DNA of 24,530 nucleotides from a virus. A model generated the notes under the pieces. The model was given only the letters and a program-made list of their open reading frames with translations, was not told the origin of the DNA and made no database searches. How positions within the stretch are numbered: position 1 is the stretch's first letter; the number at the start of each line of letters is the position of its first letter. The translations under genes were made by a program, and so were the position numbers. The stretch is from IMG/VR virus record IMGVR_UViG_3300029309_000332, positions 1 through 24,530 of that record, one strand, 5' to 3'. Of this stretch, positions 2,814-15,827 are shown in pieces.

Positions 2814-3027
2814 CGCTCTTTTCCCTTGGCCTTGCCCTGATCCAATCATCAATTTCGGTGCGTAACCAACGTGTCGTACTGTTCTTGTCGTTTTCAGGTC
2901 CGAGCACGAGAGGTTTTGGGAAGTGTCCTGTTCTCACCCATTTGTATATGGTTGTTCTTGCCACTCCCAAGGCTTCTGCCACTTCACCAACCTTGAGATA
3001 CTCTTCGTTATCAGAAGGGTATGTCAT
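2806..3027 (-). CDS. AlpA/excisionase-type helix-turn-helix protein, 73 aa
   Basis: This is a small winged-HTH protein of the AlpA/MerR-like excisionase class. Residues 10-32 read LKVGEVAEALGVARTTIYKW, a helix-turn-helix followed by 'V-R-T-G-x-F-P-K-P', the usual wing and recognition extension. A C-terminal 'W-x-x-x-E-I-D-D-W-I' completes the fold. It should bind DNA, either as a regulator or as a replication/excision accessory. It begins inside the primase gene (17-bp overlap), with a GAGGAGAAAG Shine-Dalgarno encoded by the primase's last codons. No integrase is visible in the window, so a true excisionase role is unsupported. Confidence 0.88.
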   Translation of the reverse strand: MTYPSDNEEYLKVGEVAEALGVARTTIYKWVRTGHFPKPLVLGPENDKNSTTRWLRTEIDDWIRARPREKSDG

Positions 3028-4543
3028 TTTCTTTCTCCTCTATTGGTAGGTCGGTTTCAGTTGAGTCAAACTCTGGTACAAACCAGACGCGAAGATTTTT
3101 CCATTGACCTGTATCTTCGTCTTTAAACTTGTAAACGGTGTTACACTCATGCCCACCGTTTATATCTTTGAGCCGCTGTTGTATCTGTGGACGCTTGAGT
3201 TCTCTGAAACCTCTGTTACGCAAGAACTCCATCAGTCCCTTCAACGTGAACATCGTCAAATCTGTCTCCGTCCATGGCTTACCCAGTACCATCTCCTGCG
3301 GTGACTTTGCTCTGATGCGGCTGTTACAATAGATCTCCAGTAATTCTTCAAACTGTCCTTTGATCGTAAGTTCTTTTGGAACCTCGACATGCGTTGCCTG
3401 TTCCAGAAGTTTGTTTACATATGTCTGCCATTCAGCGGCTTTCATGACTGGCGGCATCACATCCAACTGTTCCATGCAAGCACGTTGGAATTGCAACGGC
3501 ATCTGTAACTGTTCAGTGGATAACTCTAAGCGCCTGCCATCAACATCAAGGAAGTACAATCGAGGCTCTGACTTTTGTATTGTCAGGCCGGTGATGCCTG
3601 GCATTGATCCGTTCTTGCCTACGCCATACTTTGCCCCTCGGCATGCGGCCTTGTCACAATGACTGCCCATGGGTTCTTCTTTACACAGGTAGCCATACTC
3701 TTTCTTCTTGTGTTGATTTTGTATGGTGACAATCTCGCTAGCTGGCAGAGATGGCTTGCAATACTTCTGGTTCCACCTCTCCAATGTTTGTTCCCATGTA
3801 TCTGGGTGCATCATCTTTGCGGTCACAGCGGCATGAAACATGACCTTATTTCTCGTGCCATCAGGTACGGAGGTCGCAAACATAATCCGAAGACATGGCG
3901 GCATCTCCTTTAATTCATCATCGGCACTTGTAAAATCTAAACTCCGTAAGTCCTCCAAGGTAGTCGTGACCCTGTCCACATAGTTCAGGAATCGTTCAAG
4001 CGATAGTTCCTCGCCCTTCTCATTGACTGCATATCGTAAAGTATTCTCCGAGTCGAAGTATGGCAGGTTGATGAAGTTACCCACATCACCACGCTCGGCA
4101 AGGATCTTGTTTTGTTTTGGAAACACCTCACAGCCACCATAACCAAGCACAGCAGCGAACTCGGTGAGATGATCTCTCATATCAGTGGCAGTAATCCAGT
4201 CCTTGGTAAACAAGAACAGATGTGCCCCTCCTGATTTTGACCGGCAAACAACCAGTGGTAATTTAAAACGGCGACACTTCTTGAGTATGGCGACATGATC
4301 AATTGGATATGTATCAATGTCTAACGCACCAAACTTACACATGTTCTGATCATTGATGGGAATAGATCCGACTCCTGTCCCACCTTCCAAATGACCTTTG
4401 ATTAGATCCATCGTCATTGGCTCTCGTACAATGTAACTTTGTGCCTCTGTCTTACCGTTCTTCCTTACATTCCCCACTGTAGTTTGACCGTGTGCAACGC
4501 TTGATCCTTCAAACGCCGCCGCAAAGCGGTCAGCTAAACTCAT
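3011..4543 (-). CDS. Archaeo-eukaryotic-type (AEP, TOTE-like) DNA primase with SSB-like C-terminal tip, 510 aa
   Basis: The N-terminal half carries the AEP catalytic triad: motif I FGALDID (D75, D77), motif II SGGAHLFLF (H108) and motif III C-E-V-F-P-K-Q (E139-Q144). A 'G-N-F-I-N-L-P-Y-F' follows, typical of the AEP branch found in TOTE conflict systems and many phage primases. A Cys cluster in the middle (YLC...HC....C-R-G) is the zinc motif usually seen after these domains. No helicase domain is fused; the separate helicases at 1293 and 6029 may serve. The protein ends E-N-D-I-P-F, matching the acidic tip of bacterial SSB. I chose the ATG at 4543 over a GTG four codons upstream because GGAG lies 6 nt before it. 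It should make primers for phage DNA synthesis. Confidence 0.88.
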   Translation of the reverse strand: MSLADRFAAAFEGSSVAHGQTTVGNVRKNGKTEAQSYIVREPMTMDLIKGHLEGGTGVGSIPINDQNMCKFGALDIDTYPIDHVAILKKCRRFKLPLVVCRSKSGGAHLFLFTKDWITATDMRDHLTEFAAVLGYGGCEVFPKQNKILAERGDVGNFINLPYFDSENTLRYAVNEKGEELSLERFLNYVDRVTTTLEDLRSLDFTSADDELKEMPPCLRIMFATSVPDGTRNKVMFHAAVTAKMMHPDTWEQTLERWNQKYCKPSLPASEIVTIQNQHKKKEYGYLCKEEPMGSHCDKAACRGAKYGVGKNGSMPGITGLTIQKSEPRLYFLDVDGRRLELSTEQLQMPLQFQRACMEQLDVMPPVMKAAEWQTYVNKLLEQATHVEVPKELTIKGQFEELLEIYCNSRIRAKSPQEMVLGKPWTETDLTMFTLKGLMEFLRNRGFRELKRPQIQQRLKDINGGHECNTVYKFKDEDTGQWKNLRVWFVPEFDSTETDLPIEEKENDIPF

Positions 4544-8305: not shown

Positions 8306-8527
8306 TTAATCCTCCTTTCTTGGTCTGCCACGTTTTTTCGGGGCGGGGGCAGCCTGCACATAAACCTGATGTTCTGGATCATATACAAGATTATTTTGAT
8401 CGGCGACCTGGACCAGGTTCGCAATCACTCGCATGTCGGTATCCTCCAAAAGATACCGAATCAGCTTGCCCCGCAGTAAATTCAACGTGTCGTTGACCAA
8501 ATATTTAGTCTCTACTGACATACTCAT
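8306..8527 (-). CDS. Small protein with C-terminal AT-hook, 73 aa
   Basis: A helical, Leu-rich N-terminal part (TKYLVNDTLNLLRGKLIRYL) is followed by a variable stretch. The protein ends A-P-K-K-R-G-R-P-R-K-E-D, an AT-hook. The start at 8527 follows AGAGGAGAC; a second in-frame ATG two codons later is possible. It is first of the three AT-hook genes. The body belongs to no family I recognise, and the hook indicates AT-rich minor-groove binding. Confidence 0.75.
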   Translation of the reverse strand: MSMSVETKYLVNDTLNLLRGKLIRYLLEDTDMRVIANLVQVADQNNLVYDPEHQVYVQAAPAPKKRGRPRKED

Positions 8528-12532: not shown

Positions 12533-12565
12533 CCTATATATAGTGTTCTTATGTTTTGGTTTAGT

Positions 12566-12832
12566 TTGTTACAGTTGTTACACTTCTCTCGTGAAAAAAA
12601 ACTTTTGAAAATTTTTTCAAATGGGGTGTAACAAGTGTAACAAGTGTAACAAGGTATGCTGTAATGATGGCTGGACCAGCCTTTGCCCTTGGCACACTTC
12701 TCGCGTTTTTTGTTACACTTGTTACACTTCTAAGACGTTTTTCACCACTTTTGCAAAAATCTAAAAATTTATAACCAATAAAAAATTGCAAATTTGGTAC
12801 TCTATACGATACAAGTGTAACATGAGTAACAA
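12566..12832. repeat. Iteron array: nine copies of the 9-bp unit GTGTAACAA in four clusters of alternating orientation
   Basis: Minus-oriented copies lie at 12566-12574 and 12575-12583. Three head-to-tail plus copies lie at 12626-12652 (units 12626, 12635, 12644). Two minus copies lie at 12710-12718 and 12719-12727. Two plus copies with one mismatch each lie at 12815-12823 and 12824-12832. Within clusters the period is exactly 9 bp. The last cluster covers the ATG of the small terminase. Between the inner clusters is the small palindrome GGCTGG-A-CCAGCC (12669-12681). Opposed clusters could pair into large hairpins. Roles consistent with this are an iteron-type replication origin, a packaging site read by the small terminase, or a repressor-binding region. 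The 12474-12821 gap holds no gene. Confidence 0.9.
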
Positions 12833-13400
12833 GAACACCGACATTCTTGCAGATGACATGGACGCAGCGACTGGACGCAAACTGACAAATCGTCAAAAAG
12901 AGTTTGCGCGTTTGTATGTTGAAGGCATTTATTCTAACGCTGAATGCGCGAGACGGGCTGGATATGCTTCTGCATCAGCCGCTAGCATTGCTGGGCACTT
13001 ACTAGCTGGCAAAAAATTCCCACATTTAGTCGATCATATACAAGAGTTACGCGAAGAGCGTGAACGTAGATATGGCGTCACGATCATTGGTCAATTAAAA
13101 CGGCTACATGATTTGTCTGCTGGTGCTGAAGAAGCTGGTCAATTTTCAGCCGCAATCAACGCCGAAAAAATACGATCTGCACTTGGTGGATTGACTGTTG
13201 ATAGGCGCGAACAGATTCATCAGCTTGATGACCTGTCACGAGAAGAGATCACCGCAAGACTGTCACAACTTAGACAACAATATCCCCAAGCATTTATTGA
13301 GGGTGAATTTACAGAGGTCAAAGATGCCGACACCAGAGGTGAACTTTTGGAACACGTTGAAACGAAACCTGCCGAAGAACTGTCACACAACGCGAATTGA
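12822..13400 (+). CDS. terS: Terminase small subunit, 192 aa
   Basis: The N-terminal HTH block LTNRQKEFARLYVEG, with N-A-E-C-A-R-R-A-G-Y, is the signature of small terminases (Terminase_2/COG3728 class). It recognises the packaging site and recruits the large subunit at 18630. A helical central part (about 70-130) would form the oligomerisation ring. I start at the ATG at 12822 (MSNKNTD); the upstream extension has only a TTG and no leader. No clear Shine-Dalgarno precedes it, and an iteron cluster covers its first codons, which may couple its expression to repeat binding. Its last 77 bp are shared with the nuclease gene. About 5 kb separate it from the large subunit, which is unusual. Confidence 0.88.
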   Translation: MSNKNTDILADDMDAATGRKLTNRQKEFARLYVEGIYSNAECARRAGYASASAASIAGHLLAGKKFPHLVDHIQELREERERRYGVTIIGQLKRLHDLSAGAEEAGQFSAAINAEKIRSALGGLTVDRREQIHQLDDLSREEITARLSQLRQQYPQAFIEGEFTEVKDADTRGELLEHVETKPAEELSHNAN

Positions 13401-13834: not shown

Positions 13835-14557
13835 TTAATGCATCACGATTGCGATTGATTTTGCCTTAGTCGCTGCGCCACTACATAGCTTGCAAGTGTC
13901 ACAAGTAGCACGTCGGCCTGCTTCCTTACTGGCAGGGCATAGGATCTCTGAACCCTTGATGACTTGATCAACGTTATCAATAACGCGGAATGTGCGCTTG
14001 CCATTGTCCCATGCTTTTAAGGCATCGGCTTTTGTATCGGCGCTAATCATATAAAGATTAGGGTCAACATCTAGAATGTCTGATTGATGACTATATGCGG
14101 TATGCCCTATAGCATCAGTCAAAAGACTGTCCCAAATATAACTAGGCACGGCCGCACCGTCACCGTAGGTTCCGATTCGTACCATGCGACCGGCGCCAAG
14201 TTTGGCAATTTCAGCGTGTCCGGTCGCGACCGGATACCCGCCTTTTTGTAAATGCTTCCAAACATGCAAAACGCCTTGGAACAATTTAACGTAACAAGTG
14301 CGACCCTTGGCATGCTTTCCGGTCGCGTTTATGTCAACGGGCGTGCCCCTATGTTTACAATTTCCACAAATTGAAAAATCCAAACCTAGCTTATTATTAA
14401 GCATTGGGTCGTTGCCGTTGTCACATAAGATATATGTTTGAACCATATTACCCGTTTTCGTATTGCTACTTTTTACGATAGCAACGACAACGATATTTTC
14501 GTTGGGGTCAATAAGTGACCGACCCCGATATATTATTGAGCTGTTAATTTTTTCCAT
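13835..14557 (-). CDS. Conserved Cys-rich phage/plasmid protein of unknown function, 240 aa (moron)
   Basis: The order S-S-N-T-K-T-G-x-M-V-Q-T-Y-I-L, then S-I-C-G-N-C-K-H-R-G, then G-R-T-C-Y-V, then R-I-G-T-Y-G-D-G-A-A-V-P, and finally I-L-C-P-A-S-K-E-A-G-R-R-x-T-C-D-T-C-x-L-C matches a family I recognise from phages and plasmids but whose activity is unknown. The Cys pairs suggest zinc or an iron-sulfur cluster. The ATG at 14557 follows GGAGGGTTTAACA. The gene runs against its rightward neighbours and has its own promoter (14586-14614) and terminator (13815-13832). TTCGGG repeats flank it on both sides. These are marks of a horizontally acquired moron, perhaps expressed outside the main lytic programme. 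Confidence 0.85.
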   Translation of the reverse strand: MEKINSSIIYRGRSLIDPNENIVVVAIVKSSNTKTGNMVQTYILCDNGNDPMLNNKLGLDFSICGNCKHRGTPVDINATGKHAKGRTCYVKLFQGVLHVWKHLQKGGYPVATGHAEIAKLGAGRMVRIGTYGDGAAVPSYIWDSLLTDAIGHTAYSHQSDILDVDPNLYMISADTKADALKAWDNGKRTFRVIDNVDQVIKGSEILCPASKEAGRRATCDTCKLCSGAATKAKSIAIVMH

Positions 14558-14585
14558 TGTTAAACCCTCCATGATTAACAAGTTA

Positions 14586-14614
14586 ATTGTACGCCAGGAA
14601 CAAGTTAAAAACAA
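14586..14614 (-). promoter_or_regulatory. Sigma-70-type promoter of the moron gene
   Basis: On the minus strand TTGTTT (14614-14609), a 17-bp spacer and TACAAT (14591-14586) match consensus 4/6 and 5/6. Transcription would start near 14579, about 22 nt before the ATG at 14557, with GGAGGG in the leader. No operator palindrome is visible, so it may be constitutive. Confidence 0.6.
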
Positions 14615-14623
14615 GCGCAATCA

Positions 14624-14648
14624 TTCGGGCAGCGGTTCGGGGTTCGGG
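14624..14648 (+). repeat. Second TTCGGG repeat cluster, 3 copies, flanking the moron
   Basis: Copies begin at 14624, 14636 and 14643. GGTTCGGGGTTCGGG (14634-14648) is identical and in the same orientation as 13702-13716, so the 13835-14557 gene with its promoter and terminator lies between 15-bp direct repeats about 930 bp apart. Confidence 0.88.
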
Positions 14649-14658
14649 CATAATAAAA

Positions 14659-14682
14659 ACGGGGAGCCTCGAGGCTCCCCGT
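14659..14682 (-). terminator. Rho-independent terminator, perfect palindromic stem
   Basis: ACGGGGAGCCTC (14659-14670) is the exact reverse complement of GAGGCTCCCCGT (14671-14682). On the minus strand it is followed by TTTTATTA. It ends the leftward unit 15253-14707, 24 nt past the last stop. Confidence 0.88.
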
Positions 14683-14706
14683 CCTACTAGTATGGAGGAC
14701 TAGTAT

Positions 14707-14811
14707 TTAATCCTCATCCTTAATGGCAATATATATTAGCGTCACTAATCCGATAGCGTAGAAGATGAGACAGCCTATCATAAATACGCTGTCCCATTGG
14801 ATATTATGCAT
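14707..14811 (-). CDS. 34-aa single-span membrane peptide
   Basis: The frame overlaps the upstream stop by 8 bp (ATGCATAA). It encodes MHNIQWDSV, then a hydrophobic helix F-M-I-G-C-L-I-F-Y-A-I-G-L-V-T-L-I-Y-I-A and a charged end K-D-E-D: one membrane span with a short polar tail. No good Shine-Dalgarno is present, so it would rely on coupling. Tiny membrane peptides in phages can be holin-like, antiholin or superinfection-related; nothing here decides between these. Confidence 0.5.
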   Translation of the reverse strand: MHNIQWDSVFMIGCLIFYAIGLVTLIYIAIKDED

Positions 14812-15034
14812 TACCATAAAGTTTGTCCGACTCTTCGTCATTCAGATCGAATCTACCGCATGGTGATTTTGTCCGATCTGTTATCATGATTCCGTCATGC
14901 TCAAACTCTTTGCGCTTTCGCGGGACATTCTCCAAGCCTAGGAGCTTTTGAGCCGCTAGTGGAATAGGCTTGATTGTCTCAATGAGACGCCGCTTTCCAT
15001 CCTTGCACACCTTAGTTAAATATCTGTATTTCAT
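14804..15034 (-). CDS. Small basic protein of unknown function, 76 aa
   Basis: It begins MKYRYLTKVCKDGKRRLIET, with many Lys/Arg and a conserved-looking centre (PLAAQKLLGLENVPRKRKEF), and ends acidic (LNDEESDKLYGNA). GAGGACAAA precedes the ATG. It sits between the 69-aa gene (9-nt gap) and the membrane peptide in the same short unit. No family recognised. Confidence 0.65.
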   Translation of the reverse strand: MKYRYLTKVCKDGKRRLIETIKPIPLAAQKLLGLENVPRKRKEFEHDGIMITDRTKSPCGRFDLNDEESDKLYGNA

Positions 15035-15043
15035 TTTGTCCTC

Positions 15044-15253
15044 TTATAGCATCTCTATCATATCTGCAAACAAGTCTTCGCACTCTGAATGTGTCCGATA
15101 TTTACTATCATTCACTTGTTGCTGAACCATTAGCATCATTTCGGCTGTTCTTATATTGGGTGTCGGGTCTGTCACCTTGTTACCATTTATATCTGCAACG
15201 TAATAGTCACAGGGTAAATTAGGCGTATTATATTGCTTTATTCGATATTCCAT
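15044..15253 (-). CDS. Small protein of unknown function, 69 aa
   Basis: I chose the ATG at 15253 (MEYRIKQYNTPNLPCDYYVA) because GGAGGACAAA stands just before it; the reading from 15328 covers the promoter leader. Strands at the N-terminus are followed by a helix with several Met (TAEMMLMVQQQVND) and an acidic end. First gene of the 15253-14707 unit. No family recognised. Confidence 0.68.
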   Translation of the reverse strand: MEYRIKQYNTPNLPCDYYVADINGNKVTDPTPNIRTAEMMLMVQQQVNDSKYRTHSECEDLFADMIEML

Positions 15254-15273
15254 TTTGTCCTCCATATAGACAG

Positions 15274-15315
15274 CTAAAAGGAGGGGTGCTGGTCGCGTGT
15301 CTGGTCGGCGGTCAT
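15274..15315 (-). promoter_or_regulatory. Candidate 13-codon leader peptide within a hairpin-forming 5' UTR
   Basis: ATG at 15315 preceded by GAGGGGTAGCA opens a 13-residue frame (MTADQTRDQHPSF, stop at 15274-15276) between the promoter and the 69-aa gene. Its Shine-Dalgarno GAGGGGT (15326-15320 on the minus strand) is complementary to ACCCCTC at the end of the leader (15287-15281). The RNA could therefore switch between an open and a closed site. Confidence 0.35.
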
Positions 15316-15333
15316 TGCTACCCCTCATGAATG

Positions 15334-15339
15334 ATTATA
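15334..15339 (-). promoter_or_regulatory. Candidate promoter (-10) of the 15253-14707 unit
   Basis: A perfect TATAAT lies on the minus strand within GTATATAATC, just after a T/G-rich tract that also serves as the tail of the upstream terminator. The -35 is poor (TTTGTT at 17 bp). Transcription would begin about 75 nt before the first gene. Confidence 0.5.
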
Positions 15340-15367
15340 TACAAAAACAAACAAAAAACAAACAAAA

Positions 15368-15387
15368 GAGGCGCCTAGCGGCGCCTC
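15368..15387 (-). terminator. Rho-independent terminator of the 15827-15375 unit
   Basis: GAGGCGCC (15368-15375) and GGCGCCTC (15380-15387) pair perfectly around TAGC. On the minus strand a long T-rich run follows (TTTTGTTTGTTTTTTG). The stem overlaps the stop codon region of the 61-aa gene. Confidence 0.88.
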
Positions 15388-15560
15388 ATAATATGTAACA
15401 AGATGGCGCAACCAAAAGCGGCGCCAGCATATATGATCATAGCTAATCGCATCAGTTGATCAGTGAAATTGTCGAGCGGATCAACCAGCCCGTACAATGC
15501 TTGTACGGTAGCTAGCAGGATTAATCCTGCTAGCACCATTGATAGTTTAACGATCCGCAT
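15375..15560 (-). CDS. Two-span small membrane protein, 61 aa
   Basis: Two hydrophobic helices are clear: residues 6-26 (LSMVLAGLILLATVQALYGL) and about 37-57 (LAMIIYAGAAFGCAILLHIM), with an acidic loop between (DPLDNFTDQ) and a basic R-R-R end. This fits class II holin topology, but location on the minus strand away from the likely lysis genes argues against assuming lysis. Superinfection exclusion is an alternative. The ATG directly follows the upstream TAA (TAA-ATG) with GGAATAAG before it. Confidence 0.72.
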   Translation of the reverse strand: MRIVKLSMVLAGLILLATVQALYGLVDPLDNFTDQLMRLAMIIYAGAAFGCAILLHIMRRR

Positions 15561-15827
15561 TTACTTATTCCACTTCAGCGGATAAAACGTATAGGCATTC
15601 ACTGTATAACCATTTCTGGTTTGTGGACTGTCCTTGTCCTCATATGCAATGCCATTGGCTAATGCATTGGCTTTCATATCAGACCGCAACTTTTTAGCGC
15701 GACCCTCAATCCTACCCAATGCCTTATAGGCGGCCTCATTGCATCTAGCACCAATGACCCCAATAAAATCCAGAATGATACTATTGATGTCGTTAGTGCG
15801 CTGAGTGTTTTTTAGTAATGCTTGCAT
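15561..15827 (-). CDS. Small helical protein of unknown function, 88 aa
   Basis: Start at 15827 after GGAGGACTAAACA. The protein is mostly helical and basic (ALGRIEGRAKKLRSDMKANA), with a C-terminal aromatic strand (YTVNAYTFYPLKW). First gene of a two-gene unit with the membrane protein. The perfect palindrome at 15846-15865 lies 19 nt upstream of the start and may control it. No family recognised. Confidence 0.7.
   Translation of the reverse strand: MQALLKNTQRTNDINSIILDFIGVIGARCNEAAYKALGRIEGRAKKLRSDMKANALANGIAYEDKDSPQTRNGYTVNAYTFYPLKWNK

Follow-up and report, generated by a model that had tools for sequence, protein, structure and literature searches.

The Repeat Array and Its Setting

In the DNA analysed here, a 24.5-kb contig of an uncultivated marine phage (the window), a 348-bp gap between a leftward early operon and rightward terS carries short repeats in both orientations. 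What reads these repeats, and for what purpose? The preliminary description had proposed nine 9-bp iterons in four clusters of alternating orientation, and these are borne out: of the nine GTGTAACAA units in the gap, six match exactly and the other three have a single mismatch. As matched to GTGTAACAA, they run RR, FFF, RR, FF, where F and R denote forward and reverse units. The count of nine is confirmed, but a degenerate tenth unit at bp 12689–12697 had been missed. With it, the full layout is RR, A-tract, FFF, 45 bp, R, 21 bp, R, 9 bp, R, FF. The features of the gap are as follows.

12535–12542, minus strand: TATATATA, possible −10 of the leftward early operon (read from the sequence)
12566–12583, minus strand: left iteron pair RR (GTGTAACAA, CTGTAACAA read on the minus strand; unit search)
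12593–12621, no strand: A-tract/AT-rich quasi-palindrome between left RR and FFF, candidate DNA-unwinding element (read from the sequence)
12626–12652, plus strand: central triplet FFF, three perfect GTGTAACAA at a 9-bp period; AAC, the barcode, is at unit positions 5–7
12689–12697, minus strand: degenerate tenth iteron R1 (GTGTGCCAA), 45 bp past F3 and 21 bp ahead of R2
12710–12727, minus strand: right iteron pair R2R3, both units perfect
12803–12808, plus strand: TATACG, possible −10 of terS (read from the sequence)
12815–12832, plus strand: iteron pair FF across the terS start codon, one mismatch each
12822–13400, plus strand: small terminase subunit TerS (Terminase_2), neighbour of the array and not the reader of its barcode

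The last cluster overlaps the terS start codon (ATG 12822), as had been described. The repeats in the gap are real and beyond chance. Across the whole window, 18 matches to GTGTAACAA at no more than one mismatch are observed versus 6.6 expected, a number reached by none of 100 dinucleotide shuffles, and the six exact units of the gap compare with a maximum of one in 3000 Markov-1 simulations. A sigma-70 consensus scan of the gap found no promoter and supported neither candidate −10 (TATATATA, TATACG). GC skew tracks gene orientation in the window and, being thus confounded, is uninformative about an origin.

The Layout Is Kept While the Barcode Changes

Relatives of the window phage were collected through TerS; they are metagenome contigs, so that chimeras are possible. 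A search of relatives had been named beforehand as a test, with absence of the repeat counting against the iterons. The array is present in them in conserved layout: the core FFF-R-RR keeps its spacings although the unit sequence differs. The position of R1 in the window holds an intact unit in the close relatives L006 and L007. The FF pair over the terS start is found in the window and G007-type clades and is missing from other clades. An AT-rich segment adjoins the iterons in the relatives as it does in the window, and the relatives inspected have an A- and T-tract segment to the left of FFF. In the window and in the relatives' genomes the iterons are tandem direct repeats forming one compact array per replicon, and no second repeat cluster is found elsewhere in either. 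In one contig, L588, no array was found in the upstream sequence examined.

The units share the frame GTGT-NNN-AA. The three middle bases, the barcode, usually switch jointly in almost all copies of one array. Barcodes in this frame are AAC (window), GAC with GCC (G007 type), TAC, CTT, CGA, CTC, and others. A second clade has the frame GTGT-NNN-CA with near-identical flanks and the barcodes AAT, TCT, AAA, ACT, CAA, CCT, and CAT. G027 and G029 are 98.7% identical over 6.6 kb, yet their barcodes are AAA and TCT. Mixed arrays also exist (L284, L045, and G010). That of L284, upstream of terS, is chimeric, with forward units GTGTCATCA and right reverse units GTGTCCTCA, as if caught in the middle of a barcode switch.

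F and R units are complementary, so pairing between them as RNA or single-stranded DNA hairpins, or as a cruciform, would also couple changes among copies, the barcode changes then being compensatory base-pair changes. The conserved F/R mismatches are, however, of non-wobble type (A/C at position 6 in the G007 clade; TT/GG in the L040 clade). Two clades differ in R1–R2 spacing (21 and 10 bp) by one helical turn, as for proteins on duplex DNA, and pairing needs no identity among tandem F copies. We find this explanation scarcely credible, and RNA or cruciform pairing was rejected on the non-wobble mismatches and helical phasing. The cruciforms of the preliminary description are disfavoured on the same grounds.

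No cultured close relative with the same array at terS was found among HTVC027P, HTVC023P, 023Pt_psg01, and DSL-LC04. Pelagibacter phage HTVC023P does have ACTAGGAAAA-like repeats upstream of terS (L388:11650–11800), all in the same orientation, which may be a distant counterpart.

Neighbouring Proteins Do Not Track the Barcode

TerS and the AlpA-type, RHH, and NrdR-like proteins had been put forward as candidate binders. As readers of the variable bases they are unsupported. G015 and G016 have TerS proteins of 100% identity but differ in every array copy, and the RHH domain is likewise identical in this pair, whose units are entirely different, and unchanged across several barcodes. AlpA is 100% identical in phages with the barcodes TCT, ACT, and AAA. 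Each of the three was rejected as barcode reader because it is unchanged across differing barcodes, and the NrdR-like protein because most relatives lack the gene. A regulator reading the array as its operator should change with it and be present wherever it is; that pattern was found for neither RHH nor AlpA, and no RHH homologue was found in the G022 genome, which carries a perfect array.

G022 is informative in another respect. Its array, of GTGTCTCAA units, lies at the early/late junction beside a VRR-NUC gene. In this genome (L185), terS has been relocated into the late structural genes (record 45084–45653), 24 kb from the usual place; the array stayed. The array and terS are therefore separable. 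Together with the identity of TerS, AlpA, and RHH across barcode switches, this argues that the array is not simply a terS or packaging element.

A packaging start (pac or cos) bound by TerS would account for the place of the array, which is next to terS in most relatives and extends across the terS start codon in the window. TerS and its site would then be expected to change specificity together and to lie side by side across relatives. Instead, TerS is invariant in G015 and G016, adjacency is usual and not obligatory, as G022 makes plain, and in cultivated relatives (see below) the array lies beside the primase gene and not terS. We regard a packaging site as highly improbable; the suggestion that packaging starts here is disfavoured by G022.

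Two HTH proteins were also considered. A 68-aa HTH protein at first looked like the sole outlier gene in the G015/G016/G018 clade. It was rejected, as homologues are common in phages without a detected array, and it looks like a gene moving between phages. This protein (L171:9782–9988, minus strand; loci L189–L244) has a variable patch after "GVH" and differs greatly even where the genomes are otherwise close. In the L281 group, the corresponding position is occupied by a 118-aa HTH protein, which was rejected because it does not sort by barcode.

Other observations concern gene content nearby. At window bp 13835–15827, and in the same place in G025–G029, a variable block of small minus-strand genes lies between the VRR-NUC gene and the late operon; its gene content differs between near-identical phages. 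A small early protein (L151:6657–7082; G007:45657–46082, plus strand; homologues in G006, G008, G009, G010, and G019) belongs to the family of window 8306–8527. In G006–G010 and G019 this family has a C-terminal stretch resembling the N-terminus of the apparent major capsid protein (AISRAQLAKELEPGLNALFG.EY), and possible mimicry of the capsid N-terminus is suggested by that likeness.

The Primase Co-Varies with the Barcode

The protein that does co-vary with the barcode is a primase, encoded 8 kb from the array. Its features are as follows.

3014–4540, minus strand: AEP (TOTE-type) primase, 509 aa, proposed initiator on the array (Pfam AEP-TOTE, 1.6e-14; CAPP PrimPol 7nqd; co-variation)
3056–3373, minus strand: primase residues 390–495, C-terminal domain, predicted winged helix (pLDDT 90, pTM 0.83)
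3092–3139, minus strand: primase residues 468–483, two-stranded wing with candidate specificity residues 468/469/471 and 482/483

Twenty-two primases, each with an array on the same contig, were aligned, and every variable column (353) was ranked by its association with each barcode base, overall distance being controlled. The top-ranked column is residue 469 for base 1, 482 for base 2, and 471 for base 3, the tests of bases 2 and 3 being partly confounded with clade. K471 is paired with C at base 3 in 22/22 array–primase pairs, which are not independent of one another. Residue 469 follows a class code, V/I with A, T/Y/F with G, Q/M with T, and K with C, that holds in 20 of the 22, the classes having been named after most of the data had been seen. 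Unrelated clades (window, L232, and L549) share the pairing of V or I at 469 with base A. The code is chemically sensible: where the base is C, lysine would face the guanine paired with it, and where the base is A, a hydrophobic residue would face the thymine. The exceptions are G010, which has a mixed array, and L572, discordant at base 1 and the one clear exception. The L572 contig (L590) combines the array GTGTTATAA with the wing KINIK, which accompanies CCT in L551; either a recent array exchange or a chimeric contig would give this combination. Six pairs were obtained by scanning once the correlation had been noticed, and these agree in 5/6 cases at base 1, one of the five (F469) only as an aromatic like Y, and in 6/6 at base 3. 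In the second clade, with the frame GTGT-NNN-CA, the barcode is associated with primase residues 468 and 483.

In the tight group, differences between primases of differing barcode concentrate in the C-terminal domain. The primases of G025 and G026 differ at 8 of 19 wing positions versus 8 of 491 elsewhere (p = 8e-9), and the wing is similarly enriched for differences in G020/G022 (p = 1e-4), G025/G027 (p = 6e-4), and G026/G027 (p = 4e-4). G027 and G028, both with the barcode AAA, have identical primases. Of the relatives of G027 with a switched barcode, G029 is the closest, and its contig stops short of the wing. For G015/G018, G018/L193, and window/G007, wing differences number only one or a few, with no enrichment over the whole wing.

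A requirement for the array and the primase to switch specificity together would explain why these loci, 8 kb apart, keep their match when the DNA between them fails to sort. The match of these two loci, with intervening genes unsorted by barcode, is the strongest single argument for the primase as the putative reader.

It also bears on a reading in which AlpA, RHH, or another small regulator recognises the constant GTGT as its operator, and the barcode is neutral, homogenised by template switching between inverted copies. AlpA and RHH do belong to DNA-binding families, and the mixed arrays of L284, L045, and G010 resemble intermediates of such a process. Yet a correlation with primase wing residues 8 kb off, in several clades, is not expected of a neutral barcode, nor is an array without an RHH homologue (G022) expected of an RHH operator; AlpA, RHH, and TerS stay the same from barcode to barcode. 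This reading is very unlikely in our judgment.

Domains and Predicted Fold of the Primase

The AEP catalytic domain is present, as judged from the Pfam AEP-TOTE and CAPP PrimPol matches, and D74 and D76 are invariant. No ATPase domain was seen in the primase. Modelling of the C-terminal domain by itself yields a winged helix with high confidence; modelling of the full-length protein is less secure (pTM 0.49). Of the two predicted wing strands, one carries residues 468, 469, and 471 and the second carries 482 and 483. A PDB search with the C-terminal domain returned no significant match (best E 0.12), and the domain matches the C-terminus of other phage primases in BFVD.

Cultivated Phages with the Same Primase Family

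Fifteen cultivated phages of Acinetobacter, Klebsiella, Pseudomonas, Providencia, and Salmonella encode primases about 30% identical to that of the window, and each has F and R units in a gap of 280–455 bp directly upstream of the primase gene. The unit is AGCAACCG in Acinetobacter DMU1 and its relatives, of GGTAAC type in JeffCo and Barton, TGGAACGG in Klebsiella VLCpiS6a and Pseudomonas PSA28, ATGGAACC in Providencia Kokobel2, and TGGAACGC in Salmonella PMBT28. Most of these arrays have an FFF-like tandem; JeffCo and Barton have spaced units only. Among Acinetobacter primases 94–99.8% identical to that of DMU1, wing residues 497, 498, 504, and 509 differ when the unit differs. In these phages the array is beside the primase gene, not terS, and there is no divergent operon at the gap.

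These phages help in weighing a further possibility, namely that the primase binds the array as an autoregulatory operator, an early/late switch, and not as an origin. In its favour, many initiators autoregulate, divergent operons flank the array, units are found close to TATATA boxes, and in certain clades they overlie the start of terS. In the cultivated relatives, however, the array precedes the primase gene without a divergent operon. The RR/AT-rich/FFF layout fits an origin, and a dedicated repressor role is hardly expected of a primase. An operator that is not an origin is, on balance, unlikely.

A Model for the Array

We suggest that the phage's own AEP primase binds the array, serving as a sequence-specific initiator, and that the array is most likely the replication origin; we put the probability of this reading, which is drawn from comparative sequence analysis, at roughly three in four (0.77). 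That iterons serve an initiator had been proposed in the preliminary description, and the conserved layout in relatives and the co-varying primase support it. Primase subunits would bind the iterons through the wing, which would read the barcode, and the remainder of the C-terminal domain would read the constant GTGT. Cooperative binding may then open the A-tract, after which the primase would prime synthesis. Because divergent early and late operons flank the site, their promoters are probably repressed by the bound initiator as well.

The joint rewriting, in related phages, of the word and of the primase residues points to an evolving lock-and-key pair. Diversification may serve to evade satellites or origin-directed nucleases, or to keep coinfecting relatives from using one another's origins. 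More specifically, and tentatively, at a little under even odds, near-identical lytic marine phages may rapidly diversify three-base origin barcodes, read by a short wing code, which would block use of the origin by coinfecting relatives and satellites and attack by origin-directed nucleases. This would be an incompatibility-like barcode in free phages. No antagonist directed at the origin was found here.

Nature seems to have repeated a specificity-switch experiment many times. The system makes testable the base-by-base recognition of DNA by a wing, the joint change of a site of about ten copies and its reader, and phage competition through origin specificity. It also offers a candidate origin for the uncultivated phage group and for the cultivated phages sharing the primase.

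Comparison with Known Systems

No paper describing the array was found among open-access full texts. The alpha protein of P4 is a primase that recognises its own repeat-bearing origin and also has a helicase domain. The proposed system would resemble it in pairing a primase with its own repeat-bearing origin and differs by the helicase domain.

Primase and initiator functions occur together, sometimes fused, in the replication modules of PICIs (Pri-Rep, iteron ori; PMC6092414, where the P4 alpha protein is also named). Here, the array is in a free phage and not an integrated island, with no Phage_integrase match in nine relatives, some of them fragments, and consists of 9-bp units with a three-base barcode. 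In domain layout, an AEP domain plus a C-terminal WH, the primase is like PrimQH and PolpTN2-like AEP primases, whose WH domain has been suggested to recognise origins (PMC5862659). What the present case would add is natural covariation that names a probable cognate site and candidate reading residues.

In PLE, the origin and the origin-binding domain of RepA diversify together, and origin changes escape ICP1 Odn, a nuclease mimicking the initiator (PMC8263062). There, the iterons are semi-palindromic, of about 30 bp, and whole domains are swapped, whereas here the code is one of three bases and a few residues. The repressor and stoperators of Cluster A mycobacteriophages provide a case of asymmetric short sites that vary between relatives with the DNA-binding protein (PMC6550527). 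Stoperators are many and scattered over temperate genomes; here there is one compact array per genome, the Phage_integrase search above found no integrase, and the co-varying protein is a primase.

Initiator–origin pairs are known already. What stands out here is a short and legible candidate code, in which residue 469 would correspond to base 1, 482 to base 2, and 471 to base 3.
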